From contig JAIXWY010000005.1 of assembly GCA_027490995.1 (NCBI GenBank), positions 124,001-188,000 of the forward strand: a DNA stretch of 64,000 nt. The letters run 5' to 3'. The position numbers and the translations under genes are program-made. Source of the DNA: Opitutaceae bacterium (GTDB taxonomy: Bacteria; Verrucomicrobiota; Verrucomicrobiia; Opitutales; Opitutaceae). Under the pieces are notes generated by a model. That model was not told where the DNA came from. It did no database searches and saw only the letters and a list, made by a program, of their open reading frames with translations. Numbering within the stretch: the first letter of the stretch is position 1; every line of letters begins with the position of its first letter. Of this stretch, positions 22,922-36,727 are shown in pieces.

Positions 22922-23644
22922 ATGATTGAAGTCAAAGGTCTGGTCAAAACCTACGGCGCCAAGCGGGCCGTCGATGGCGTCTCTTTCAAGGTCAACCGCG
23001 GCGACATCCTCGGCTTCCTCGGGCCCAATGGCGCCGGCAAGTCGACGACCATGAAGATGATCACGGGTTTTCTCCGGCCCACCGCCGGCACCGCGCTCGT
23101 CGATGGACACGACGTGACGCAGGACCCGGTGGCCGTGAAGCGCCGCATCGGTTATCTGCCCGAGAGTGCGCCCGCCTACGGGGAGATGACCGTGCAAGAG
23201 TTCCTCGGCTTCATCGCCGAGGCTCGGGGCTTCCGCTCCGCCGCCGAACGCACCGCCCAGGTCGATCGCGCCATCTCCCTCACCCACCTCGATCCGGTCC
23301 GCCGCCAGAGCATCGAAACGCTCTCCAAGGGCTACAAGCAGCGCGTCGGCTTCGCCCAAGCGTTGCTTCATAATCCTCCGGTCCTGGTCCTGGACGAGCC
23401 GACCGATGGTCTCGATCCCAACCAGAAGAACGAGGTCCGTTCGCTCATCAAGTCGATGGCCGCGGAGAAGGCCGTCATCCTGTCGACCCACATCCTCGAG
23501 GAAGTCGAGGCGATCTGCACCCGAGTCATCATCATCTCGCAGGGCCGGGTCGTCGTCGACGAAACGCCGGCTCAGTTGCAGGCCCGCCAACCGGGCGCCC
23601 GGCTCGACGTGATCTTCCGCAGTCTCACGCAGAGCGACGTTTGA
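22922..23644 (+). CDS. ABC transporter ATP-binding protein (GldA/NatA-like)
   Basis: A 240-residue ABC ATPase: Walker A GPNGAGKSTTMKM (about 38), a signature variant ETLSKGYKQRVGFAQALLHNP (about 137-157) and Walker B LVLDEPTDGLDPNQ (about 158-171), with the switch ILSTHILEEVEAI. SKGYKQR in place of LSGGQ is common in GldA/CcmA-type exporters. It begins a three- or four-gene set: ATPase, permease, GldG-like protein and a DUF4340 protein. The exported substrate is unknown. The ATG follows TCCCTTTCCCC. Confidence 0.9.
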   Translation: MIEVKGLVKTYGAKRAVDGVSFKVNRGDILGFLGPNGAGKSTTMKMITGFLRPTAGTALVDGHDVTQDPVAVKRRIGYLPESAPAYGEMTVQEFLGFIAEARGFRSAAERTAQVDRAISLTHLDPVRRQSIETLSKGYKQRVGFAQALLHNPPVLVLDEPTDGLDPNQKNEVRSLIKSMAAEKAVILSTHILEEVEAICTRVIIISQGRVVVDETPAQLQARQPGARLDVIFRSLTQSDV

Positions 23645-23702
23645 TCCTTCCGCGCGACCTCTGATTCCCCCCGTTCCGTTTTCCTCCGTCCCCTCCTTCC
23701 CG

Positions 23703-24425
23703 ATGCGATCGATCGTCCCTCTCTTCAAGCGCGAGTTCCTCGGCTACTTCCGCTCGCCCGTGGGCTACGTCTTCCTCGCCGTCTTCCTCGTCGCGAGCGT
23801 CATCCTCGCCTTCTTCGTCGGCGGCTTCTTCCGCGGTGGCACCGCGAGCCTCGAGAGTCTGTTCAACTTTTACCCGTGGCTCTTCCTCTTCCTGATCCCC
23901 GCCGCAGGCATGCGGCTGTGGTCGGAAGAAAAACGCTCCGGCACGATCGAGCTGCTCTTCACGTTACCGGTCACCACGCTCGATGCCGTTCTCGGCAAGT
24001 ACCTTGCCGCGTGGGCCTTCCTGAGTCTCGCCGTCGTGCTGTCGTTTCCCATGGCCGTCACCGTCGCCTATTTGGGTGATCCAGACTGGGGCGTGCTGCT
24101 CGCCAGCTACTTCGGCAGCATCCTGATGGCCGGCTCCTACCTTGGGGTCTGCTCCCTTGCCTCCGCCCTGACGAAGAATCAAGTGGTCAGCTTCGTCATC
24201 GGGACTCTCGCCTGCCTCCTGCTGTTGTTCCTGGGCCTGAGCGTTTTCAACACGCTGCTGTCCGCGCTCTTCCCGACGTGGCTGGTCGACTTGCTGGCGA
24301 ACTTCAGCTTCAGTACGCACTTCGAAGCGTTCACGAAGGGCATCATCGATCCCAAGGACGTGATCTTCTTCCTGTCGCTGTCGGGTTTCTGCCTCTTCCT
24401 CAACGTTGTCGCGCTCGAGCGCTGA
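23703..24425 (+). CDS. ABC-2 type permease (GldF-like)
   Basis: A 240-residue integral membrane protein with about six helices. It starts MRSIVPLFKREFLGYFRSPVGYVFL, and the stretch FLFLIPAAGMRLWSEEKRSGT is the ABC-2 permease signature. It lies 58 bases after the ATPase gene and 45 before the GldG-like gene. By architecture it is the membrane part of the exporter. In Bacteroidota the GldA-GldF-GldG set is linked to gliding, but orthologues are common in non-gliding bacteria, so no motility role is implied. Confidence 0.88.
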   Translation: MRSIVPLFKREFLGYFRSPVGYVFLAVFLVASVILAFFVGGFFRGGTASLESLFNFYPWLFLFLIPAAGMRLWSEEKRSGTIELLFTLPVTTLDAVLGKYLAAWAFLSLAVVLSFPMAVTVAYLGDPDWGVLLASYFGSILMAGSYLGVCSLASALTKNQVVSFVIGTLACLLLLFLGLSVFNTLLSALFPTWLVDLLANFSFSTHFEAFTKGIIDPKDVIFFLSLSGFCLFLNVVALER

Positions 24426-24470
24426 TCGCCGCCACCCCCGCTTCTCCCGGAACCCTCCCGCCCCGCCACC

Positions 24471-26354
24471 ATGAAATCCGGCTCCAAGTTTGTCTTCATC
24501 GTCCTGCTCTTCGTCGCGCTGGTCCTCGTCAACTTCCTCGCCTCCCGGCTGCCGTTCCGGGGCGATGCGACGGCCGAAAACATCTACACGCTCTCTGCCG
24601 GGACGAAATCGATCCTGAGCAAGATCGAGGAGGACGTAGTCCTCGACTTCTATTTCTCCAAGTCCGTCCAAGGTCTCCCGATCACCTACAAGAACTACGC
24701 CGCCCGCGTGGAAGAAATGCTGCGGCAGTACGTCCGCGCTTCCGGGGGCAAGCTGCAGCTGAACGTGATCGATCCGCGGCCCGACACGCCGGAGGAGGAA
24801 AAAGCCACCGCCGCCGGGCTGCAGCCGCAGCAGTTGCCCACGGGCGAAACGGTCCATTTCGGCCTCGTTGCCACGCAGGCCGACCAGCAGAAGACGATCA
24901 CGTCGTTCAACCCGCAGCGCGAATCGTTCCTCGAGTACGATCTGTCGCAGTTGATCACGAGCGTGCAGACCGTCACCCGCAAGAAGCTCGGCCTCATCAC
25001 CAGCCTGCCGCTCCAAGCTCCAGCCATGGACATGATGATGATGATGCAGCAACGTCAGCGTCCGACCGGCCAAATGGTCGCGGACGAATGGGGCCGCACG
25101 TTTGAGTTGGTACCCATCGAGGCCAACGCCACCGCACTGCCGGGCGACCTCGATGTCCTCGCGGTGATCCACCCTCAGGGGCTTTCCAACACGCTGCAGT
25201 TCGCGATCGACCAGTTCCTGCTCAGCGGCAAGCCGGTCTTTCTCGCCATCGATCCGTCGTCCCAGCACTTCAAGCGGCAAGGCGGCCAAGCCGCGATGTT
25301 CGGCGGGGCACAGCCCAACGTGTCCAGCGATCTGCCCACGCTGCTCAAAGGCTACGGGATCACCTACAATCCACAGAACGTCGCCGGTGACCTCGCCAAC
25401 GCGACTCAGGTCCAAACCAACGCCGGCATCGTGCGCTACCCGGTCTGGCTCACCTTGGCCCAGGAATCCCTCAACCGTCAGGCGATGCCGGTCGCCCAGC
25501 TGAAGTCCACGCTCTTCGTCGAGAGCGGCAGTCTCGCCATCGAGGCCGGCGGACGCACCGTCACGCCCCTCATCGAGACGTCCGCGTCCGGCGGCGACGT
25601 GCCCGCCTTCTCGCTCCAGTTCGCCCAGCCCGAGGAGGTCTCCCGCCAATTGGTGCCGTCCGGCCGCAAGACACTCGCCGCCATCATCACCGGTAAGTTC
25701 ACTTCCGCCTTCCCCAACGGAGCCCCGAGCGACGCTCCCACACCGGGCGCAGACGCGAGCCAGGCACCCGCTCCTGCCACGCCGCCCACCTCGCCCGCGC
25801 TACGGGAATCGTCGGGCACTTCCACGCTGCTGGTGGTCGCTGATACCGACTGGCTCTTCGACGATTACAGCGTCCGGCGCTTCAACTTCCTCGGGGTCCA
25901 AGCCGCCGAGCCGCTCAATGACAACCTCGCGTTCGCCAGCAACAGCCTCGAATTCCTCGGAGGCTCCCAGGATCTGATCTCGATCCGCGGCAAGGGCAGT
26001 TCGATGCGGCCGTTCACCGTCGTCCGCCGCATGGAAGTCGACGCGCAGCGACGCTATCAGGAGCAGCTCACCGCGCTCGAAGCACGGATCAATGACGTGC
26101 AGCAGAAGCTGACCGAGCTTCAGGGCAAACGCAACGAGGGTAACCGTCTCGTCGCCACCCCGGAAATGCAGAAGGCGATCGAGGACTTCCAGGCGCAACA
26201 GGCGGTCATGCGCGGCGAGCGCCGCGAAATCCGCAAGGCCCTGCGCGAGGATATCGAACGTCTCGAAAACGGTCTGCTGGTCGGCAACCTGCTGGCCCCC
26301 GTCCTCCTCGTCGGCGCGGTTGGCTTCGTGGTCCATCGCCGCCGCCGTCGCTGA
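24471..26354 (+). CDS. GldG-like ABC auxiliary protein
   Basis: A 627-residue protein with a membrane helix at each end (about 7-25 and 603-620) and a large extracytoplasmic part. The region after YTLSAGTKSILSKIEEDVVLDFYFSKS resembles the GldG/ABC-type uncharacterised transport domain, and a coiled coil follows at about 540-600. A methionine tract (DMMMMMQ, about 187-193) and a Pro/Ala-rich linker (about 425-445) are unusual. It goes with the ATPase and permease before it. A role in forming an accessory domain of the exporter is inferred. Confidence 0.8.
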   Translation: MKSGSKFVFIVLLFVALVLVNFLASRLPFRGDATAENIYTLSAGTKSILSKIEEDVVLDFYFSKSVQGLPITYKNYAARVEEMLRQYVRASGGKLQLNVIDPRPDTPEEEKATAAGLQPQQLPTGETVHFGLVATQADQQKTITSFNPQRESFLEYDLSQLITSVQTVTRKKLGLITSLPLQAPAMDMMMMMQQRQRPTGQMVADEWGRTFELVPIEANATALPGDLDVLAVIHPQGLSNTLQFAIDQFLLSGKPVFLAIDPSSQHFKRQGGQAAMFGGAQPNVSSDLPTLLKGYGITYNPQNVAGDLANATQVQTNAGIVRYPVWLTLAQESLNRQAMPVAQLKSTLFVESGSLAIEAGGRTVTPLIETSASGGDVPAFSLQFAQPEEVSRQLVPSGRKTLAAIITGKFTSAFPNGAPSDAPTPGADASQAPAPATPPTSPALRESSGTSTLLVVADTDWLFDDYSVRRFNFLGVQAAEPLNDNLAFASNSLEFLGGSQDLISIRGKGSSMRPFTVVRRMEVDAQRRYQEQLTALEARINDVQQKLTELQGKRNEGNRLVATPEMQKAIEDFQAQQAVMRGERREIRKALREDIERLENGLLVGNLLAPVLLVGAVGFVVHRRRRR

Positions 26355-26572
26355 GCGCGACGTCTCACCTTCCCGCCGCGTCACCTCCGCCTTTTCTCCG
26401 ACTGCCCGCTCTTCCTCCGCACGGCCCTCTCTCGGTCGCCTCACCGCCTCTTCGTCCTCTCAGGTCTCCCCGGCATCCGAATCCGTCCGGCCTCCGCGCC
26501 TCTTCCCATCGCTGCATCTCGACTGGTCCCCGCCTTCCTTCCGGTCATCCGTAACCTTTCCCCCTCTTCGGC

Positions 26573-27763
26573 ATGAAACTGAAACCGCTCCTCGCCGTCG
26601 TCGCTCTGCTCGCTGTGCTTTCCGCCGCCGTGTACTTCGTCGGCCGTCCCGCCAAGCCCACCGGCCTTGACCCGCGCATCGGTCAGACGCTGCTCACCGC
26701 CGCCAGCCTCGATCAGGCCTCCGCCCTTACGCTCACGGAAAACGGCCGCACCGTGACGCTCAACAAGTTGCCCGCCGGGGGATGGACCGTGCAGGAGTAC
26801 CATGGCTTCCCGGCCGACTTCACGAAGCTATCCCGGCTCGTCGGCGACTTGGTCGGAGCGAAGGTGGAGCGTCTCGTCTCGCAGAACCCCGAGCGTTTGC
26901 AGGGTTTCAATCTCGGCGATGCCCGCATCACGCTGAGCGACGCATCGGGCAAGGCGGTCTGGAGCTTGGACCTCGGCAAGAACGCCGAGGGCGGCGGGCG
27001 CCTCGTCCGCTACGATGCCGAGACGAAGGCCTACCTGACCCGGCTGAGCGTATTCCTCGACATGGAGCCGAAGAACTGGGCCGATGCCTCCCTCCTCTCC
27101 CTCAAGACCGACGACATCGCGGGCGTGGAGCTCTCGTTCGCTGAAGGGGCGCCGCTGGTCGCCTCCCGCACCAAGAAGGAAGATCCGTTCACCGCCGCCG
27201 ACGCCCCCGCCGGGCAGCAGCTCAGTCGCGCCAAGATCGACTCCCTGCTCAGCACGATCGGCACGCTGCGCTTCTCGGACACGTCGGATCTCGCGGAGCC
27301 CAACGCTGTCGCGGCCAAAGCCAACGCGCGCACCCTCGCCGTAAAAACCTTCGACGGCCGCAGCTACCGCGTCGCCATCGGCCGTAAGCCCGAGCAGAAG
27401 ATCGTGAAGGCTCCCGAGGCCGGCAAGGCCGGCGGCACCGGCCCGACCGCCCTCGGCTCCGTTGCCGACCTCGCCAAGGTCGCACCCTCCAGCGGCGCCA
27501 CCACCGCTTCCGCGCCGGCACCCAAGCCGGGCGAATCCGCCGGTCCAGCCGCCGTCGTCGAGAACGCCACCGAGACGATCCCCGCCGGCCCAGTCTACGC
27601 CTTCGTCGCTGCGTCCGACGCCGCTGCACCCGTCAACCAACTCATGGCCAAGCGCAGCTTTCAGGTGTTCGAGAGCACGTTCACAACGCTTCCGCAAAGC
27701 CGCGCTGACCTTTTTGAGCCAGCGCCGACCGCACCGGCCGCGCCCGCTCCAGGACCGAACTAA
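26573..27763 (+). CDS. DUF4340-family protein
   Basis: A 396-residue exported protein with a short N-terminal membrane helix (about 4-22) and a repeated beta-strand domain: LTLTENGRTVTLNKLPAGGW and LSDASGKAVWSLDLGKNAEG. This layout matches DUF4340, a family found next to GldG-like genes in many bacteria. A Pro/Ala-rich stretch is at about 300-325 and another at the C-terminus. The 218-base gap before it is C/T-rich and holds no gene. It is convergent with the amidohydrolase-aminotransferase gene, 26 bases away. Confidence 0.75.
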   Translation: MKLKPLLAVVALLAVLSAAVYFVGRPAKPTGLDPRIGQTLLTAASLDQASALTLTENGRTVTLNKLPAGGWTVQEYHGFPADFTKLSRLVGDLVGAKVERLVSQNPERLQGFNLGDARITLSDASGKAVWSLDLGKNAEGGGRLVRYDAETKAYLTRLSVFLDMEPKNWADASLLSLKTDDIAGVELSFAEGAPLVASRTKKEDPFTAADAPAGQQLSRAKIDSLLSTIGTLRFSDTSDLAEPNAVAAKANARTLAVKTFDGRSYRVAIGRKPEQKIVKAPEAGKAGGTGPTALGSVADLAKVAPSSGATTASAPAPKPGESAGPAAVVENATETIPAGPVYAFVAASDAAAPVNQLMAKRSFQVFESTFTTLPQSRADLFEPAPTAPAAPAPGPN

Positions 27764-27789: not shown

Positions 27790-30123
27790 CTAGGCAAGGC
27801 GGGCGAAGCCGCGGCGTGCCGTACCGGCGCTGGTCATGCCGCTCAGTCCTTCTTGGGAAATCGCCAGGGAAACCGCTGCGAGGGACTCATCGCAAGCAGC
27901 AAGAAAACGCGCTCGCGCGTCTTCGGAGTGCGCCAGCATGAGATAGGTAAAGGAGGCCGCGAGAACTCCGCGCTGGAGCATTTCGCGGACGTAGCGTTGC
28001 TGGACGCCGACCGTGGCCGCGCCAAGATCGAAGACGAGGGTCGGCGTCGTCGGCATGCTGGACACGGCCACGCGGCACAAAGGGTAGCACGCCGCGATTT
28101 GCTCGAGTGCTGCCCTCAGCTTGAGACCGCGCGACCACATTTCGTCAAAGATCCGCTCGCGCTCCATTCGACGCAGCACGGCCAGAGCAGCGGACGTACC
28201 GACTCCATCCGTCCAATAGCTCGATGAAATGAAGCTCGCTTCGGCCGATTCCATCACTCCCTTGCGTCCCACCACCACGCCGAAAGGAAAGCCATTACTC
28301 ATCGCCTTCGCGTATACCGCTAAGTCTGGATAAAGGCCGAGACGCGCGGAGGCTCCCGGGAACCCGTAACGGAGCCCACTCGTCACCTCATCAATGATCA
28401 GGACCCCGCCGGCCGCGCGGCAGCGCTGTGCGACGGTCTCGAGGAAGCCTTCGTGCGGCCACTGAGAACGCATCGGCTCCATCACCACCGCGGCCAAATT
28501 TCCGTCCAACTGGCTGAGCGCTTGATCAAACGACTGAAGGTCATTGTACCGAAACGGCACCGATGTCCCGGCAAGCTCGCGGGGAACGCCGCGGGGCTCC
28601 AGCCCTGGCAGCAAGTGTCCGTCGAGCGCATGGGTTCGACCTAAGTTCGCCGCGAGGTACCAGTCCTGCCACCCGTGATAGCCGCAAAAGGCGATGCCAC
28701 TACGCCCAGTCTCAGCGCGGGCAATTCTGACCGCGACACCCATGGCGTCCCCTCCTCCGCGAGCATAGCGGACCTTGCCAGCCCACGGATGCAAAGCGAG
28801 TAGTCGCTCCGCCAACTCGTATTCGTCCGGATTAACCAGTGTGCAGTAATTACCCCGCGCCACGCGTCGTTGCACCGCCTCATTGACGTGCGGATCGGCA
28901 TAACCGAGCAATACAGCCCCCACTCCACCGGCAAAATCTAGGAAACGACGATGCTCCAGATCCCAAACCTCGCACCCTTCGCAACGAGAGAAGAACGTAG
29001 GCCAATGCTCCGGGTCGAACTGCTCGGCTCGCTTGGACATCAGGCCGGTACCTCCGGAAATGACATCCTTGGCTTTGCGCCACCGAGCTGGGACCTGGAC
29101 CGGAGCCGGTAACTCCGACGCGGGGAGAAAGGCACGCAGCAGGCGGCGAGCGTTCCCATCGAACACGAGATCCAAATCCGGCGCGGTCAGCGCTGCCCGC
29201 TCACAGGCCCCCCTAAGAGCAACGAGCGATTCGAGCCCGATCAACGAAGCCCGCGCCTCAAAGCCTTCACCGGGCACTCCTTCGGCTTCGCGCGCATAGA
29301 GCCAGTGGAATCCGTCTCCGACCGTGACGCAGCGACCACGGAATTCACTAACGGGAAAATCCGAACCCCACAGGACCCGATGGACGCCGAGGATTTCAAT
29401 CGCCTCCGAAAACGCGGGCTCATCGCAAATGACGGACGTATCCACCACAACGTTGTCTAGCCCCGCCACGGCACGCAGGCCCGCTCGGGCGTGATGGTAG
29501 TTGAAGCTGCGCGCCACGTGGGCGAGCACCACTTGTACTCGCGGATAGCGGCGACAAAGCCGACGCAGGGAACGCTGATTGGCTTCGTCCGCCATCGCGG
29601 CGTCTCTGACCACATGCAGCATCAAGATGCCTCCGACGCCATCAAGGAGCTCCCACATCCAATCCGGTGCGTACTCCTCGATCTCCGATTCGGTCGTGGG
29701 CCGACGTGGCGCGTAACAGTGATACACCTTGAAGCCACAGACCCCCGGCAACACCAACTGGCGCGCCAAACTCTCGGGGCCATCCGCGGGCGCCGCAAGA
29801 ATGAGCGACCGACTCGCGGAGGCGCCGCGCGCTGAAACTTCGTCCGCTAGCCATGCGTTCACGCCGAGGCGATCGGCGCCCGCATGCGGCAGCGGGAAGT
29901 GGAGGCCAGCGATTTCGAGCGAGGGGATCAGTCGGTGCAGCGAAGAACGATGCTGCTCACACCCCAGGGGCGAAATCCGCGCTAGGGGTGACCACGCATC
30001 TGCCGGAAAGAATCGCGAGTCGTGCAGGTGCGCATGGATGTCGAACACGCGCCGCGGGAGGAAATCCTCCAGACGCTCCGCGAGGACGTGATCTCGTTGG
30101 TCGAGTTGGGAAGCGAAGAACAC
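27790..30123 (-). CDS. Amidohydrolase / class-III aminotransferase fusion protein
   Basis: A 777-residue protein with two apparently complete enzyme halves. Residues about 25-332 form an amidohydrolase-2 TIM barrel: H30-x-H32 in FDIHAHLHD, K132, H170, H202 and D255 in GSDFPVSE, closing with DGNARRLLR. Residues about 365-760 form a class-III PLP aminotransferase of the glutamate-1-semialdehyde type: DFAGGVGAVLLGYADP, LIIDEVTSGLRYGF and PLP lysine K606 in VYAKAMSNG. Start is GTG 30123; no closer start keeps the HxH motif with a leader. It is last in the receptor operon, 24 bases after the previous stop. GC content is lower than in neighbours. I infer sequential hydrolysis and amino transfer on one substrate, which is unknown. 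Confidence 0.85.
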   Translation of the reverse strand: MFFASQLDQRDHVLAERLEDFLPRRVFDIHAHLHDSRFFPADAWSPLARISPLGCEQHRSSLHRLIPSLEIAGLHFPLPHAGADRLGVNAWLADEVSARGASASRSLILAAPADGPESLARQLVLPGVCGFKVYHCYAPRRPTTESEIEEYAPDWMWELLDGVGGILMLHVVRDAAMADEANQRSLRRLCRRYPRVQVVLAHVARSFNYHHARAGLRAVAGLDNVVVDTSVICDEPAFSEAIEILGVHRVLWGSDFPVSEFRGRCVTVGDGFHWLYAREAEGVPGEGFEARASLIGLESLVALRGACERAALTAPDLDLVFDGNARRLLRAFLPASELPAPVQVPARWRKAKDVISGGTGLMSKRAEQFDPEHWPTFFSRCEGCEVWDLEHRRFLDFAGGVGAVLLGYADPHVNEAVQRRVARGNYCTLVNPDEYELAERLLALHPWAGKVRYARGGGDAMGVAVRIARAETGRSGIAFCGYHGWQDWYLAANLGRTHALDGHLLPGLEPRGVPRELAGTSVPFRYNDLQSFDQALSQLDGNLAAVVMEPMRSQWPHEGFLETVAQRCRAAGGVLIIDEVTSGLRYGFPGASARLGLYPDLAVYAKAMSNGFPFGVVVGRKGVMESAEASFISSSYWTDGVGTSAALAVLRRMERERIFDEMWSRGLKLRAALEQIAACYPLCRVAVSSMPTTPTLVFDLGAATVGVQQRYVREMLQRGVLAASFTYLMLAHSEDARARFLAACDESLAAVSLAISQEGLSGMTSAGTARRGFARLA

Positions 30124-30147: not shown

Positions 30148-31701
30148 TCAGCGAAACTGAAGGGAGTAGAGGTCCGCTTCCTTCATCACAAAGCGCAGGC
30201 GCACCGCCCGCCCCTGAAGCGCGCGCAACGGCGACCGGTCGGTCATGCCTTTCTGATAACCCCAGTCAACCGATCGGGAAATGTGATCCCCGAAAACAAG
30301 CGGTGAATCCTCGAGAACAAACCCAGGGATCGGCTGCCCGCTCGCTGCGTCCTGAATCTCAATCCGGATGCTGCCGTTGGCTGAGGTTGAATAGTTCAGA
30401 AAGAGTTCGGATCCACGGAAGATAAGCGGCTTGGAGATCCACTCGCCCCCGGGGTAGCCAGCGCGAAGCGAGACGAAACCATCTGTTCGAAGGACCATGC
30501 GCTCGACTCGATTGCTCGCGAACGTGTAGTCGCGCTCGATGAACAGCGAGAGCTCGGACTCGGAGGTCTGGACAAAGCCCGGCAATGGAGTGTTAGCGCG
30601 ATGGCTCCAGTTGCGGGGATTAGATCCTGGATTGATGAATGCCTCGGGAAAGAGCGTCCATGCAACTCCGTCGCGACTGCTCATGAAGAGCGCATCGGAG
30701 ACACCGGGGGTCTCGCGATCCATCTCTCGAAAGTAGGTTCTCCAAGGGAGGTAGCGCCGCGGTATCCCGACGTAGAGGTGCGGCGCACGCTCGTAGGGAG
30801 CGGCGGCGATCGTGTAGAGGTGAAACTGCGGAGCCGTTCCAAAATCGGCCCATTGACCCTTGGTCCAGGTCCGAAAGTCGGACGAGCGCGCGAACTTGAA
30901 GCTACGGACGCCGTTCTGGAAGTCCCGGTACAGTGCTACGTACTCCTTCCTCAGTTCATCCCAGAACGCCACGTTCAGCGAGTCGAAGGCCCCATCGCGG
31001 ATGATGGGTTCCGAATCTGCTAGCTTCCAACGCACGCCATCGGGCGACGTGAAGAAGTAGAGCGCAGGCTGGGCGTCCGGCCGTTGAAAATACTCGTACT
31101 GCGTTTTCGCATCAGCGTTGCTCGGCGGAGGAGGCGGACCCCCAGCGGGCCGAAAGGACGCGACCGCCTTGTAGGCCTCTTCCGGGCGTGCCTGCGGGTT
31201 ACGATCCCGAAAAGGGTAAAAATTGTGGGCGCCTGGTCCCATCCACACGATGTTGTTCTCCCGCGACCCATTGAACTCGAAGAGCCCGAGATTCGGACGC
31301 TCCCACCGCACGCCGTCCCGGCTCTCGACGAAGCAGACCGTCTCGTCATGCTCCGGGACGATCCGCTCGCCCGGCTGCAGCGTGCCCGGGAGAGCGTAGG
31401 ATGGCAGGCTGTGACCCCGGTAGTACATCCGGAAGCCGCTCTCGGTCTTCATCAGGCTGGCGTAGGCACTCGTGTTCCCCTCCCAGTCACGGTCGAAGAC
31501 GATCGAGGTCTCCGCCGGGCGCGGCTCGTGCAGGCGGAAGTCCACCCCGCTCATTTCCGCGATGAGATGGCGGTCAACCATAAGTTCCAGGCGGTCGCCG
31601 ATGTCGATGGGTCCGCCCGCTGCAGCGGCTGGCCCGACCCCGGAAAGCACCCCGAAGACGGCAAATGGAATGACCCGGGCAAAGCGGTAAAAGGAGTTCA
31701 T
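30148..31701 (-). CDS. Secreted five-bladed beta-propeller, glycosidase-like
   Basis: A 517-residue exported protein (signal about 1-27, VGPAAAAGG). The body resembles GH32/GH43-type beta-propeller proteins: repeated strand units with FTSPDGVRWKLADSEP, FWDELRKEYVALYRDF and MSSRDGVAWTLFPEAF, which are blade motifs with S.DG..W. The end (about 430-517) looks like a beta-sandwich. Acidic catalytic residues cannot be assigned. The frame is open further upstream, but the ATG at 31701 shares an ATGA with the stop of the preceding gene and gives the signal peptide. A role in splitting or binding a glycan before uptake is inferred from the TonB receptor in the operon. Confidence 0.75.
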   Translation of the reverse strand: MNSFYRFARVIPFAVFGVLSGVGPAAAAGGPIDIGDRLELMVDRHLIAEMSGVDFRLHEPRPAETSIVFDRDWEGNTSAYASLMKTESGFRMYYRGHSLPSYALPGTLQPGERIVPEHDETVCFVESRDGVRWERPNLGLFEFNGSRENNIVWMGPGAHNFYPFRDRNPQARPEEAYKAVASFRPAGGPPPPPSNADAKTQYEYFQRPDAQPALYFFTSPDGVRWKLADSEPIIRDGAFDSLNVAFWDELRKEYVALYRDFQNGVRSFKFARSSDFRTWTKGQWADFGTAPQFHLYTIAAAPYERAPHLYVGIPRRYLPWRTYFREMDRETPGVSDALFMSSRDGVAWTLFPEAFINPGSNPRNWSHRANTPLPGFVQTSESELSLFIERDYTFASNRVERMVLRTDGFVSLRAGYPGGEWISKPLIFRGSELFLNYSTSANGSIRIEIQDAASGQPIPGFVLEDSPLVFGDHISRSVDWGYQKGMTDRSPLRALQGRAVRLRFVMKEADLYSLQFR

Positions 31702-33539
31702 GGTGTCAAAAGGGGCAGCATCGCTACGTCCTGCGGATCGCCCGCGGTCTCGGCCGCAGCACCGTATCGCAGGACAACCCGGACCGCGGTCGCACCCGCG
31801 TCCCACTTCTCTTTCAGGTCGAACCGCACGTTGCGCTCGGTGATTTGGTTCCCAGCGTAGTGCTCAGCCGAGGCGCGCTCCCAGTTTCCGGTGCGCCGTA
31901 CCTCGATGCGGGCATGCGTCCGATGACCCATCGGCGCGACCCGCGCCCAGAGACTCGGCGGGGCACCAGACGCTTCTGCCTGTCGCCAAAGAGCGACGGC
32001 GACCGGCCGATCCTCGGCGCTGACTCGCCACCTTCCGACCGCACTCCGCAACTCTCCAGCGGGGGTCTCGACCACGAACTGGTAGGAGTACTCCTCACCC
32101 GGTGCGAGCCCTTCAAGGTCCACGTTGACCCCCGCCCCTCCGGGGTCCGAGGCCAGCGGCATTCCGCTGCCGAAAAGTTCGATCTCACCCAGACCCCAGC
32201 GTTCCGCCTCATACCCCGACTTCACTTCCAGTTTGAAGTGGGTGACATCCTCGGCCGCCACGCCCGCAAGGGCGTACCCGTGGTTCGCGCTGACCGGCGA
32301 CTCGCGGGGCAGGGAAAGCTGCGCCAAGGGCTCCCACCGCGTGCCATCCGGCGACACGTAGGCGGCCACCTCGCGCGATGGATGGCGAACGGACTGATGA
32401 ACCTGCAGGGCACTCAGGCGGACGGGCGCGGGAAAGCGCCAGACGAACGATTGCGGCCCCTCCGGCGCCGGCCCCGAGTGCCATTCGCGATCCACACCAT
32501 GGCGCCACCCGTCCGTGAGCCGCTCGGCCATCCCCGCGGAGCCGGGAGGAGACTCGATCAGCCGCGTTCCGTGCGCCGGGAAAAGCAAGGAATGGTTGCG
32601 GTATTGAATGACGATCGAGTCAAAATCGATCGTGCCCACAGGCGGCAGCTGTCCGTCAACATAGACGTACAGGTGAAAGAAATTAGCGTTTAGGTCTTCG
32701 AGCGACTGATTGAGGTTCAGGTAAGCGTAGCGCTCGGAGCGCTGCTGGGAGAGATTGTTTCCCCCGTAAGTCCAGCGCCGCGTGTCGTTTTCAAGGACGT
32801 AGGAGACGTCATTCCACCGGCCATCCAAGAGTGCTCGGGTGGCGTAGCGTCCGGTGTAGGCCCAGTTGGCCCGGACCCAACGCGGGGATAACTGCAGCGC
32901 GGGATCATGATCGCTCTGGGCCCAGAATGTCAGCTCGGCGCCCTTGGGATCAACGCCGTTGCCCCGAAGCCGCACGTTGATCTTGGCATCGCGGAAGTCT
33001 GGACGGCCACCGCCGAGATTGAGGCCCGTGCTCCGCGAGGCCTGCAGGGGATTCGCACCCATCCTCGCGGAGTAGATGTACTGACACAGGTGCAGACCAC
33101 CGATCCCGTCGACGTGATTCACATCCAGGCCCGGGGGTTCGCCCGGAAAGGCGCGGTTCTCCGTCTCGGTGGGTCCAAGATAGCGGACGAAAGCGGTGTC
33201 CGGTGCTTCGCGAACCGGGATCAAATCCCGGCCCGAAAGACCGCCGCTCCACCCCGCCGTGTCGCGATCCCAGGACTCTCTCAGGTACGCGCCCCGAACG
33301 GGAGGAAGGGGGCGGGCTTCCGTGCGCTGGTTCATCTCGCCGTGCCTGCCGTAGACCACCCAGTAGCGGCCCGGCATGCCTCCGGTTTGAACGACGGCAT
33401 TCACCGAAACGCCCCGGGCTCCGAGATGCGTGGCACCCGTGATCGCGACTTCCCCGGCGGACACCGTGGCGGTCCCGGCAAGCGTGGTCATGAGAAAAGT
33501 GACAAAACGACGGAGGGCGGATCCAGAGTAGTTGATCAC
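31698..33539 (-). CDS. Secreted protein with a discoidin-like domain
   Basis: A 613-residue exported protein with start GTG 33539; this start gives a good signal peptide (MINYSGSALRRFVTFLM.. to about residue 28), whereas the ATG at 33491 would destroy it. A beta-rich region is at about 180-320, and an F5/8-type C (discoidin)-like domain at about 340-455 (PAPVRLSALQVHQSVRHPSR, YVSPDGTRWEPLAQ, GLGEIELFG). Fibronectin-like strands follow. I recognise no catalytic motif. It is coupled by a four-base overlap to the propeller gene and follows the TonB-dependent receptor by 88 bases. It may bind a carbohydrate at the cell surface. Confidence 0.7.
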   Translation of the reverse strand: MINYSGSALRRFVTFLMTTLAGTATVSAGEVAITGATHLGARGVSVNAVVQTGGMPGRYWVVYGRHGEMNQRTEARPLPPVRGAYLRESWDRDTAGWSGGLSGRDLIPVREAPDTAFVRYLGPTETENRAFPGEPPGLDVNHVDGIGGLHLCQYIYSARMGANPLQASRSTGLNLGGGRPDFRDAKINVRLRGNGVDPKGAELTFWAQSDHDPALQLSPRWVRANWAYTGRYATRALLDGRWNDVSYVLENDTRRWTYGGNNLSQQRSERYAYLNLNQSLEDLNANFFHLYVYVDGQLPPVGTIDFDSIVIQYRNHSLLFPAHGTRLIESPPGSAGMAERLTDGWRHGVDREWHSGPAPEGPQSFVWRFPAPVRLSALQVHQSVRHPSREVAAYVSPDGTRWEPLAQLSLPRESPVSANHGYALAGVAAEDVTHFKLEVKSGYEAERWGLGEIELFGSGMPLASDPGGAGVNVDLEGLAPGEEYSYQFVVETPAGELRSAVGRWRVSAEDRPVAVALWRQAEASGAPPSLWARVAPMGHRTHARIEVRRTGNWERASAEHYAGNQITERNVRFDLKEKWDAGATAVRVVLRYGAAAETAGDPQDVAMLPLLTP

Positions 33540-33627: not shown

Positions 33628-35895
33628 CTAGAACCGATAGTCGACCGAAAGCATGCTCCGCATGCCCTCGCTGACCTGCACCAATCCCGTGCCAGCGATG
33701 CCCTGAATGTTTCGCTCGTCGGTGAGGTTGTAGACATTGAGCTGGACCGAAACCCTATCGTTGAAGGCGTAGCGGCCCAGCAGGTCATAGGTCGCCTTCT
33801 GCGTTACCCAGAAGCTGCCGCCCGCCCGCTTCGAGCCTTCTCCGAGCCAGCCGACTCCGGCGGTCAGCCCCTTGAGCGAACCCTGCACGAACGTGTGCTT
33901 GGCAAAAATGCTCGGACGGAACTCCACGTGATTGTTGACGAGGCGGTTGTCCGCCGTCCTGCCGTCGGCATCGTACAGGGTCGCAATCACGTCCGACACC
34001 CCGCCGTCCGACTTGTAGCGCAGGCGCAGGTCCACCTCGAGCCCCTTGACCTGATCCTTGGCGGAGGCGGTCGGATACGGGGCGCCAGTCAGCGGACCCG
34101 TGATCAGCGTGCGGACATTGGTGAGGTACTGGTCAAACACAACGACCGAGCCCGAGACCGCGAACGCCGTGGTCAAGTCGACGTCGAACTTCAAACCGGC
34201 CTCCTTGACCACGCCCTGCTGATCCTTGAAGAGTTCGCCGGGATCCGTGGGGCCATCCGTGCCCGGTTGGCGCAGGACGCCGGAGCGCGGAAAAACGTTC
34301 TCGGCCTGCTGTGCGTAGAGGGAGATGTTCTTCGTCGCCCGGAAGATGACTCCGTGACGGTACGTGTCATACGAGCGCTGCGGCCCGCCACCCGTCACCT
34401 CCGCCGGAGCCCCCGTGGTGGAAACGCCCCGGAAGCTCTTGCCGCCGTTCTGGTAGCGGAAGCCCGCGATGAGGATCAGGCGGTCGTTGAGGAGTTTCAG
34501 ATTCTCCTGGAGATAGGCGGAATAGTTGTGCCCGTACGCCACATCGGCGTAGGCGCCTCCGTTGTAGTGACCCCATGCATTCTTACCGAGGGAGTTCAGG
34601 AACGCGCGGTCAGCGTTTCGCGTCGCCGCAGCATTCCCTGGCCGGGTATCGAGCATCGGCATCGGAAACAGGGTCTGGTAGTAGCGCGCGTAGCCCTTCT
34701 GGTAGTCGAAGCCGAGCATGTTCTCCAGCTTTGCAAAGCCCAAGTCGACATCCAGGCGGTAGTCGAACTGGACATTGGAATCCTCCCACTCCGCCCACGC
34801 ATCGACGTAGCGACGGCTGAGGTTGATGTTGTCGGGCTGCACCACCACCCCGCTCAGGAGCATTTCCCGATCCCGATTGGTGAAGTAAGAGTAACTCAGC
34901 CTGACATCACCCGCCAGAACCTTTCCGAGGTACTGGATGTTGATGTAGGTGCTATCGGTCTTCCACGAAACATCGTTGGGATTCTGGACCGAAAAGCTCC
35001 GCGTGGAATTGGGGTGAATCCGCGCCTTCTTCAGCGACTGCGAGCGACCCATCACACTGCCCGTGTCGCTGCCGTCCAGAAAGTCTTCCCAGTAAACGTA
35101 ATCGTTGTCCACGAAATGGAAGAAGTCCAAGGTCAGAATCTGCGAGTTAGACATCTTCGCGCGGAACGACCCACCGACGAACTTCTGATCGACGCTGTAG
35201 GCAGCCTTGTCGGAATCTCCCTGCTCCAGACCGAGGGTCAGGCGGTAGTCGATCTCAAGATCCTTGCGACTCAGCAGCGGTCCGGTCGTGTTCAACGAGC
35301 CACGGTAGGTGTTGTGGTCTCCGATTCCCACCGAGACGTCCGTCCGGCGGACTGAACTGGGCGCCCGGGTGATCGTATTCACACCACCGCCGACATTCTG
35401 GGAGGCGAGAATCATGCTCAGCGGTCCCTTGATCACCTCCACGCGATCAATGTCGAACGTCGGGACCTTCTTGTACGAACGAAGCGTGAACCCGTTCCGC
35501 AGGGTCTGGTTCGCACGAAAGCCACGGATCGTCCGGTCTTCGTCCGCACGCTGGTTGTTGTTCACGCCCGCGACACCAAAGTTCAGGGCATTCTGCAGCG
35601 TGCCGTTCAGGTCCTTCAGCAGGTCCTGATTGATCACGATCACGCTGGAGGGAATCTCCAACAGGTCCTTCGCGGATCGCGTCGACAGCGAGGTCTGGCG
35701 GCTGGAGTAACCTTCATCCTCAGCCGACGAGACGACGAAGGGCGAAAGATCAACGACCTCATCGCCGGCCTTGGCGGGCGCGTTGGTGCGGACGGTTGAG
35801 TCAGGGACAACTTGGCCAAGACCGGCGCTCGCAGCGGCAGCAACGAGCGCGAAGACCGAAACGAAGCGGACGAGGGGAGGGATTTGGGCGCGCAT
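33628..35895 (-). CDS. TonB-dependent outer-membrane receptor
   Basis: A 755-residue receptor: signal peptide (about 1-28), a short leader VVDLSPFVVSSAEDEGY typical of Opitutaceae receptors, plug domain (about 60-180; LLEIPSSVIVINQDLLKD, TIRGFRANQTLRNGF, VEVIKGPLSMI) and a 22-strand-type barrel ending in a Phe (LSVDYRF). It imports a ligand using the TonB-ExbBD system. It is first in an operon of four and divergent from a GntR regulator across 133 bases. The frame can start at GTG 35919; ATG 35895 is preferred. Sampled sequence has about 55% GC, below the window level. Confidence 0.93.
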   Translation of the reverse strand: MRAQIPPLVRFVSVFALVAAAASAGLGQVVPDSTVRTNAPAKAGDEVVDLSPFVVSSAEDEGYSSRQTSLSTRSAKDLLEIPSSVIVINQDLLKDLNGTLQNALNFGVAGVNNNQRADEDRTIRGFRANQTLRNGFTLRSYKKVPTFDIDRVEVIKGPLSMILASQNVGGGVNTITRAPSSVRRTDVSVGIGDHNTYRGSLNTTGPLLSRKDLEIDYRLTLGLEQGDSDKAAYSVDQKFVGGSFRAKMSNSQILTLDFFHFVDNDYVYWEDFLDGSDTGSVMGRSQSLKKARIHPNSTRSFSVQNPNDVSWKTDSTYINIQYLGKVLAGDVRLSYSYFTNRDREMLLSGVVVQPDNINLSRRYVDAWAEWEDSNVQFDYRLDVDLGFAKLENMLGFDYQKGYARYYQTLFPMPMLDTRPGNAAATRNADRAFLNSLGKNAWGHYNGGAYADVAYGHNYSAYLQENLKLLNDRLILIAGFRYQNGGKSFRGVSTTGAPAEVTGGGPQRSYDTYRHGVIFRATKNISLYAQQAENVFPRSGVLRQPGTDGPTDPGELFKDQQGVVKEAGLKFDVDLTTAFAVSGSVVVFDQYLTNVRTLITGPLTGAPYPTASAKDQVKGLEVDLRLRYKSDGGVSDVIATLYDADGRTADNRLVNNHVEFRPSIFAKHTFVQGSLKGLTAGVGWLGEGSKRAGGSFWVTQKATYDLLGRYAFNDRVSVQLNVYNLTDERNIQGIAGTGLVQVSEGMRSMLSVDYRF

Positions 35896-35975
35896 GGTGG
35901 TTGGGAGTCGGGAAAGCACTGGACCGAGCCCGCAAAATCGCTTGCGGTTCTGGGCACAGCTGTCAGCAGGCAGAC

Positions 35976-36002
35976 TTGGTATACCACCGCAATGGTATAC
36001 GA
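35976..36002. promoter_or_regulatory. Twin GntR/FadR-type operators
   Basis: Two sites, TTGGTATACCA (35976-35986) and TGGTATACGA (35993-36002), have the core GGTATAC[C/G] with centres 16 bases apart. TnGTn(0-3)ACnA is the general pattern for FadR/GntR regulators. They lie between the receptor operon and the divergent regulator gene, so they could serve both. Binding by the adjacent regulator is inferred. Confidence 0.7.
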
Positions 36003-36028
36003 AGCCGCGTGTAAAGCCTTTTCTTCAA

Positions 36029-36727
36029 ATGCCCAAAAATACCCCCGCATCCCCAGCGACCCCAAAGCCCTCCCCTGCGCGCGGTCAATACAGCCCGTAC
36101 GTCAGGCTGAAGGACATGATCTATCGGGGTGAACTTGCGGCGGGGAAGCGCTTGGTGGAGCGGGAACTCGCCGAGCTCCTGATGATCAGCCGGATTCCCC
36201 TCCGCGAGGCGCTGATCCGCCTCCAGTCAGAAGGGTTAGTGCTGAGCAGTCGGAGCACCGGCGCCTACGTCGTCGATTTCTCTCCGAAGGACTTGGCGGA
36301 AATCTACTCGCTTCGCCGGGTGCTGGAGCCGTTCGCAGCGGGGCTCTTCGCGGAGAGGAAGGACCAGCAGCAGGTACTGCAGGACCTCCGCGAGATCTGC
36401 CAGCGCATGAGCGAGGTGGCGGTCGATGAGCGCGCTTGGGACAACCTCGACGAATGCGATTTCGAGTTCCACTGGCTCATCGTGCAGGCCTCCCGGCACA
36501 CCCGACTGATCCGGGCGTACGACATGAGCCAGATTCGAATCCTGGGTCGCCGGGACCAATACCGCTACCTGAAGACCGTGAGCCCGACCGCCACTGCGGA
36601 GATGCATCTGAAATTGCTCGACGTCCTCGCGCTCGGAAACGGCCCCAAAGCCGAGAAGGCGTTCTTCGAACACGTCGATCATGCCATGAAGGGTTTCCTG
36701 CGCACCTACGGACTATCCAAGGTCTAG
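36029..36727 (+). CDS. GntR-family (FCD) transcriptional regulator
   Basis: A 232-residue regulator: winged helix-turn-helix (about 22-85; LKDMIYRGELAAGKRLVERE, ISRIPLREALIRLQSEGLV) and a C-terminal FCD ligand domain (about 95-225; IYSLRRVLEPFAAGLFAE) with histidines suited to metal/ligand binding (FEFHWLIVQASRHT, EMHLKLLD, FFEHVDHAM). The frame is open upstream; the ATG at 36029 follows an AT-rich leader TTTTCTTCAA. It is divergent from the receptor operon, and two matching operator sites lie between. It probably represses the operon until a breakdown product binds. Confidence 0.9.
   Translation: MPKNTPASPATPKPSPARGQYSPYVRLKDMIYRGELAAGKRLVERELAELLMISRIPLREALIRLQSEGLVLSSRSTGAYVVDFSPKDLAEIYSLRRVLEPFAAGLFAERKDQQQVLQDLREICQRMSEVAVDERAWDNLDECDFEFHWLIVQASRHTRLIRAYDMSQIRILGRRDQYRYLKTVSPTATAEMHLKLLDVLALGNGPKAEKAFFEHVDHAMKGFLRTYGLSKV

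Follow-up and report, generated by a model that had tools for sequence, protein, structure and literature searches.

A single open reading frame of 777 amino acids (27790..30123, minus strand) in the window, by which we mean the whole 64,000-nucleotide (64-kb) stretch of Opitutaceae DNA analysed here, begins with a GTG codon and runs uninterrupted through both an amidohydrolase and a class-III aminotransferase. This raises the question of whether the two truly form one protein and, if so, what kind of substrate such a chain might handle. A first-pass annotation, made from the DNA letters, had known of no described enzyme with this pairing, and no description of an amidohydrolase fused to a class-III aminotransferase was found among the open-access papers searched; the parts of the family are known, and it is their pairing that is undescribed there. 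The matter is of general interest, as fusions reveal which enzymes work together, and here an uncharacterised amidohydrolase subgroup is linked with an aminotransferase that has relatives in nonulosonic-acid loci.

The fused reading frame and its conservation

Pfam searches place the best Amidohydro_2 stretch at residues 79-330 of the fusion (E 1.8e-17; 64.5 bits against a gathering cut-off of 26.4) and Aminotran_3 at residues 374-680 (E 8.3e-37; 127.3 bits against 30.5). The N-terminal half (AH, residues 1-330; 29134..30123, minus strand) is an Amidohydro_2 protein by Pfam with a predicted TIM-barrel type fold, and the C-terminal half (AT, residues 347-777; 27793..29085, minus strand) is, by profiles, a class-III aminotransferase resembling glutamate-1-semialdehyde aminomutase (GSAM). 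Between them lies a spacer of about residues 331-346 (29086..29133, minus strand; limits approximate).

The metal ligands of Amidohydro_2 enzymes are an HxH pair, two further histidines and an aspartate on the amidohydrolase barrel. In AH, alignment places the metal-type HxH motif at residues 30-32 (H30/H32; 30028..30036, minus strand), and the GSDFP motif spans G253-P257 and includes D255; H30, H32, H170, H202 and D255 are presumably the expected ligands. In AT, the DEVTSG motif starts from D578 and alignment places the expected PLP lysine at K606 (codon 28306..28308, minus strand), so that we take K606 to bind PLP and D578/E579 to be the Asp/Glu of the DExxxG motif. These residues had been placed in the same way at first pass, and H30, H32, K132, H170, H202, D255, D578, E579 and K606 are invariant in 35 of 35 distinct fused rows. 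In fact, all 24 positions checked (metal-type, PLP-type and some others) are identical throughout, several of them having been preselected from smaller alignments that had already shown them to be invariant. The 35 rows are 36 loci minus one (L041) whose DNA duplicates part of another (L031), and the overlap between the two sets from which they come, 57 genomes and a contig collection, may exceed this one removed copy. Inactive halves in relatives were also looked for, and no visible inactivation was found; degenerate halves are ruled out by the identity of the active-site-type residues. Between the fused copy of the window and its counterpart in a related genome (G003), with about 83-85% identity in both halves, dN/dS is 0.074 for AH and 0.067 for AT in this one pair; at the codon level, both halves are shown to be under purifying selection within one chain.

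Two neighbouring genes joined by a frameshift or a misassembly could look much the same, and an error of this kind near the join had been named in the first-pass annotation as a danger. AH and AT do stand as neighbours in related genomes, and nothing else was found in favour of an artefact. Against it, the identical join is present in isolates, in metagenome-assembled genomes (MAGs) and in several phyla: in isolates of Chitinophaga alhagiae (L042), Brevifollis gellanilyticus (L050), Cyclobacterium jeungdonense (L082) and Pleomorphovibrio marinus (L086), and in MAGs labelled Verrucomicrobiota, Planctomycetota, Hydrogenedentes and Clostridia. The join is free of stops, and the stretch from N324 to I355 measures 23-50 amino acids across the 35 rows. 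In the contig-collection search with the AT half, which proceeds through AT motifs and is therefore escaped by AH-only or distant fusions, AH and AT share one stop-free frame in 26 of the best 80 of 574 confirmed matches. Among the 57 genomes searched (the source genome and relatives), the fusion occurs at 11 places in eight, with two copies each in the source genome (C9, C14), G003 and G004 and one each in G001, G002, G009, G030 and G036; a contig end cuts at least two of the 11. Thus, a frameshift or assembly error is ruled out for practical purposes, its probability being negligible, and the genuineness of the fusion is close to certain; the single chain claimed at first pass is confirmed by the reading frame, by Pfam and by independent genomes.

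The fusion is not the only arrangement. In 387 genomes drawn from Verrucomicrobiota, AH is present at E 1e-30 or better in 22, and in eight of the 21 that remain once the source genome is excluded it is fused, with AH and AT adjacent and the open frame of the same length. In a plasmid collection, AH had no match, and no record covered 80% of the fusion. One long AT open frame (G144) was considered as a further fusion and discarded, its extra N-terminal part having no AH match.

Relatives and linkage of the two halves

All 25 NCBIfam models listed for AT score below their own cut-offs, the best of them naming GSAM-type enzymes. Direct assignment as GSAM (HemL) fails at 171.4 bits against a cut-off of 527.3, and the equivalog PRK06209 (NF004856) fails at 222.9 against 486. 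The top solved matches of the AT profile are FumI (6hbs), GSAM and D-phenylglycine aminotransferase. AT shares with the GSAM-like class-III aminotransferases (PRK06209, HemL, FumI 6hbs) the fold family, the PLP lysine and the DEVxxG motif; unlike the fusion, however, the 18 best solved matches are 411-464 amino acids long and have no room for an amidohydrolase. The invariant R25 (AT alignment) was considered as a possible equivalent of Arg32 of GSAM, which we take to bind a carboxylate, and this was not borne out, as the profile alignment places the two one column apart. Judged by sequence, AT belongs to the GSAM-like group, with transamination as the default and mutase or lyase chemistry as possibilities; fused chains should not be annotated as glutamate-1-semialdehyde aminomutase.

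Structure prediction of the AH half, which had been suggested as a check, gave a confident barrel-type model for residues 1-340 (pLDDT 92.6, pTM 0.92; 29-row alignment). With this model, Foldseek against the PDB ranks a dihydroxybenzoate decarboxylase first by E-value and the cog3618 proteins 4do7 and 4dlf second and third, 4do7 being, we assume, the L-fucono-1,5-lactonase of cog3618. Among the 50 matches listed, the best TM-scores on the target are those of 6uvz (0.76) and 4do7 (0.71); 4do7 and 4dlf reach 0.60-0.61 on the query and 0.70-0.71 on the target and the decarboxylases about 0.52-0.58 and 0.49-0.59, the higher target scores of 4do7, 4dlf and 6uvz partly reflecting their shorter length. 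AH resembles Amidohydrolase_2 enzymes such as 4do7/4dlf, 2ffi (a putative 2-pyrone-4,6-dicarboxylate hydrolase) and 2dvu (a dihydroxybenzoate decarboxylase) in its fold by Foldseek and its metal-type HxH, H, H and D. It differs from them in sequence, as its profile matches to the PDB are weak (E 5e-6 to 6e-3) and its identity to the 50 matches listed is 11-17%, which is so low that specificity cannot be read from structure matches. No NCBIfam model matches AH at 1e-40. AH is a separate subgroup of Amidohydro_2 whose modelled fold appears to fit lactonases and decarboxylases about equally. A title cited in two papers places an L-fucono-1,5-lactonase within cog3618 (PMC6336799, PMC13406643).

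These relatives leave some room for another chemistry, likewise catabolic, in which AT would be a GSAM-type enzyme acting as an aminomutase or ammonia-lyase and AH a decarboxylase or hydratase sharing the amidohydrolase fold, with an amino acid-like compound, for instance, as the substrate in place of a sugar lactone. The GSAM-type names of the AT profiles, the solved relatives of AT and the E-value rank of the decarboxylase all agree with it. By contrast, the TM-scores of 4do7 and 4dlf stand above those of the decarboxylases, and 6uvz leads on the target, always with the caveat on length. The gene neighbourhoods, to which we return below, bear on both sides of this alternative.

How closely AH and AT are tied can be judged from their trees. 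In the tree of AT (101 rows, built quickly and with SH-aLRT as its sole support measure), all 35 fused rows fall in an AH-associated clade of 48 (support 97), of whose other 13 members three have AH adjacent and 10 have no AH nearby. The family has 97 rows, and the 49 outside this clade are unfused, three of them (L053, L065, L096) near an AH. The label 'fused' requires five changes on this tree; therefore, there was more than one loss or gain of the fusion. In the AH tree (41 rows; a careful tree), the stand-alone AHs of the source organism's genus (L025, L028, L030) nest inside the fused ones, and the ATs adjoining the AH of L028 and L030 fall in another AT clade, outside the fused one. The simplest reading of these sequences is that AH split off and was re-paired with a different AT of this kind; such a history would support a functional tie between the two. 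Separate AH and AT genes lie side by side in L028, L030, L099 and L053, and divergently in L096. Moreover, AT is present in 15 of 22 AH-positive against 26 of 365 AH-negative genomes (Fisher p 1.8e-11) and, after removal of the nine fusion genomes, in six of 13 AH-positive genomes (p 2.6e-4), both values being uncorrected for kinship.

It might nevertheless be that the fusion is a device for co-expression, with both halves active in separate places of metabolism and sharing no substrate. AH and AT also lie apart on different contigs in G003, and no AT was detected at 1e-60 in seven of the 21 AH genomes, which are drafts; from this last count, AH apparently can act alone or with another partner. 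However, the long retention of the fusion in several phyla with a short spacer, the adjacency of separate AH and AT genes in other lineages and the possible re-pairing of AH make a device of this kind very unlikely.

Gene neighbourhoods of fused and unfused forms

The loci were compared through neighbour families defined as single-linkage BLAST clusters, whose membership shifts with the cut-off and whose neighbourhoods are cut by contig ends. Genes were called as open reading frames picked by length or GC3, with no trained caller, and family names rest on profile scans of one or two members each. Among the 35 distinct fused loci, short-chain dehydrogenases (SDR) occur in 13, two MFS families in eight and seven, a stand-alone Amidohydro_2 in eight, an HpcH/HpaI aldolase in seven, PhyH in six, aldo/keto reductase (AKR) and Gfo/Idh in five each, RidA and a paired 3HCDH in four each, and FAH and M81 in three each; no family exceeds 13 of the 35. 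SSF transporters were found in six plus three fused loci (families c13 and c33 of an earlier clustering, in which the SSF family lost its scanned member at the later cut-off). Regulators of the IclR, AraC or GntR type are present in some fused loci, and propeller proteins in a minority. Among fused loci, the AKR and Gfo/Idh families are confined to five of Bacteroidota, and FAH and M81 to three of the source organism's family; consequently, the routes may differ between lineages. A second GSAM-like class-III aminotransferase is found in seven of the 35, in several cases beside RidA or 3HCDH (for instance, L021:4052-5404, L023:3888-5429, L042:17371-18678 and L058:2212-3531).

Could the role of the fusion be to build a surface sugar, like that of its aminotransferase relatives in pseudaminic acid loci? 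Many unfused relatives sit among PseB-, PseC-, PseI- and cytidylyltransferase-type genes. For instance, the unfused AT of L117 has as neighbours a PseC (511.1 bits against a cut-off of 423.5), a PseI (503.5 against 340.25), a Polysacc_synt_2 dehydratase-type gene, an AKR and a cytidylyltransferase, and a Pseudosulfitobacter plasmid carries, by its RefSeq annotation and in this order, pseB, pseC, an aldo/keto reductase, a class-III aminotransferase, pseG and pseI, interrupted by two further genes. AKR and SDR families are found repeatedly in fused and unfused loci alike, and in a Vermiphilus MAG (L053) separate AH and AT genes lie beside Gfo/Idh, SDR and Glu dehydrogenase genes. The aminotransferases of pseudaminic acid loci are related to the fused AT on the tree, share about 38-47% identity with the AT of the window copy and, like the fused form, have AKR companions; they differ from the fused form in having no AH fusion, biosynthetic neighbours and a Gfo/Idh of another BLAST family. 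What speaks against synthesis is the marker families. NeuB/PseI is found in none of the 35 distinct fused loci against 33 of 63 unfused ones, the cytidylyltransferase family in none against 30, the PseB-like family in none against 26, and DegT in one (L075) against 29. Fused loci have transporters, a TonB receptor and regulators instead. Pseudaminic acid biosynthesis by the fused form is accordingly disfavoured, and the construction of any surface sugar by it appears improbable.

Fusions of other kinds are seen on the biosynthetic side. The pseudaminic-acid-type locus of Prochlorococcus (L119:9269-11296, the one scanned) has a related aminotransferase joined to a cytidylyltransferase, and length suggests the same cytidylyltransferase fusion in L109, L114, L115 and L118 (AT frames of 665-679 amino acids) and in L121:8254-10287. 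A Pse cluster has been reported in which an aldo-keto reductase and an SpsF-like cytidylyltransferase domain are joined (PMC7371886), so that other fusions within the pseudaminic gene set are, at least there, already on record.

As far as gene families can tell, the setting of the fused form resembles the breakdown of sugar acids more than the synthesis of surface sugars. Non-phosphorylative sugar-acid pathways combine an SDR, an Amidohydro_2 protein and an HpaI-type aldolase or FAH hydrolase. Fused loci resemble those for L-fucose and pentoses in these same families, and differ from them in their PLP aminotransferases, RidA and M81 or M19 families. The occurrence of FAH-family enzymes in such pathways is noted in PMC6336799. 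HpaI, AKR and SDR alone cannot separate breakdown from synthesis, because unfused loci carry them too (three, 19 and 17 of the 63, respectively). Within the AH-associated clade, 10 unfused members have no AH nearby, and neighbours were also scanned for three of them, which lie near a DHDPS-type aldolase (L106), near an HpaI aldolase, GH36 and MGH1-like hydrolases (L071), and near UxuA, M81 and Amidohydro_2 (L073). For the aminomutase or lyase chemistry introduced above, the RidA, M81, M19 and 3-hydroxy-D-aspartate-aldolase-like genes of some loci hint at amino-acid chemistry. Nevertheless, sugar-acid genes and glycoside hydrolases surround the clade, and we regard this alternative as unlikely, though the least unlikely of those considered.

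Proposed role and the setting of the window copy

The best explanation, to which we give about an even chance, is a bifunctional catabolic enzyme for an acid derived from an amino sugar. Its parts differ in strength. At first pass, the chain had been read as hydrolysing a ring, lactone or amide and then exchanging an amino group, or the reverse. Of this, a single bifunctional enzyme is well supported by the conserved residues and the spread over several phyla, and the hydrolytic and amino-exchange chemistry can be put forward conditionally. A catabolic sugar setting is rather probable, and the specific combination of a lactonase with a transaminase is tentative, being more doubtful than the setting.

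In the proposed mechanism, AH, a predicted metal-dependent hydrolase of the Amidohydro_2 type, would most likely act on a sugar acid by opening its lactone or a similar ring. AT, a PLP enzyme, would remove or move an amino group on the same intermediate or the one that follows; AH may act before AT or after it. The pair would serve the non-phosphorylative breakdown of an amino sugar released from glycosides, in which dehydrogenases (SDR and, in Bacteroidota, also Gfo/Idh/MocA proteins and aldo/keto reductases) might act on carbonyl or hydroxyl groups and an aldolase of the 2-keto-3-deoxy-acid type or an FAH hydrolase might cleave the chain. With both activities in one chain, their stoichiometry would stay one-to-one, and an unstable intermediate may be passed on. 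Counted against the best explanation are the three of six ATs near an AH that fall outside the AH-associated clade (L053, L065, L096), the lead of a decarboxylase in Foldseek by E-value, and the scanned neighbours of the window copy, among which there is no aldolase and no dehydrogenase.

More speculatively, and with a rather low probability, the fusion may be the signature enzyme of a pathway, so far undescribed and spread over Verrucomicrobiota, Bacteroidota and Planctomycetota, that degrades an amino-bearing sugar acid, perhaps a bacterial surface sugar related to pseudaminic acid; in this pathway, one protein would open the ring, deaminate and hand over the intermediate. If true, the fusion would be the degradative counterpart of the aminotransferase module with which such sugars are made in other bacteria. 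In any case, one protein, cultured hosts and a partly conserved gene neighbourhood offer a handle for a new route of amino-sugar degradation.

In the window, the gene upstream of the fusion (30148..31701, minus strand; family c10, no Pfam family) encodes 517 amino acids from ATG 31701, or more from an earlier start, as the frame is open from 31806; it ends at 30148, 24 bases before the start codon of the fusion, and has homologues in eight of the 35 distinct fused loci, the window included. It is preceded by genes for a 613-residue protein (31698..33539, minus strand) with a weak PhoD_N match below the cut-off and a TonB-dependent receptor (33628..35919, minus strand), with Plug above its cut-off and a siderophore-receptor profile below. 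A divergent GntR/FCD regulator follows (35987..36727, plus strand; start unsettled). By their spacing, the receptor, 613-residue and c10 genes and the fusion look like an operon. Since the fusion lies last behind the TonB receptor gene on the same strand, outer-membrane uptake may be coupled to it.

The c10 gene was considered as a clear glycoside hydrolase; this was not supported, its profile matches being faint and its structure model poor (mean pLDDT 54.3); one relative gives a faint GH32N-like signal. Proteins of c10 and of a second family, c15 (L046:7446-8981), are secreted-looking by eye, have no Pfam family and recur near the fusion, and are possibly an unrecognised beta-propeller glycosidase family. 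On the other side of the fusion lies what by eye we take to be an ABC transporter block (22922-27763, plus strand) of an ATPase, an ABC-2 permease and GldG-like and DUF4340-like proteins, and four clustered genes recur beside the G003 copy.
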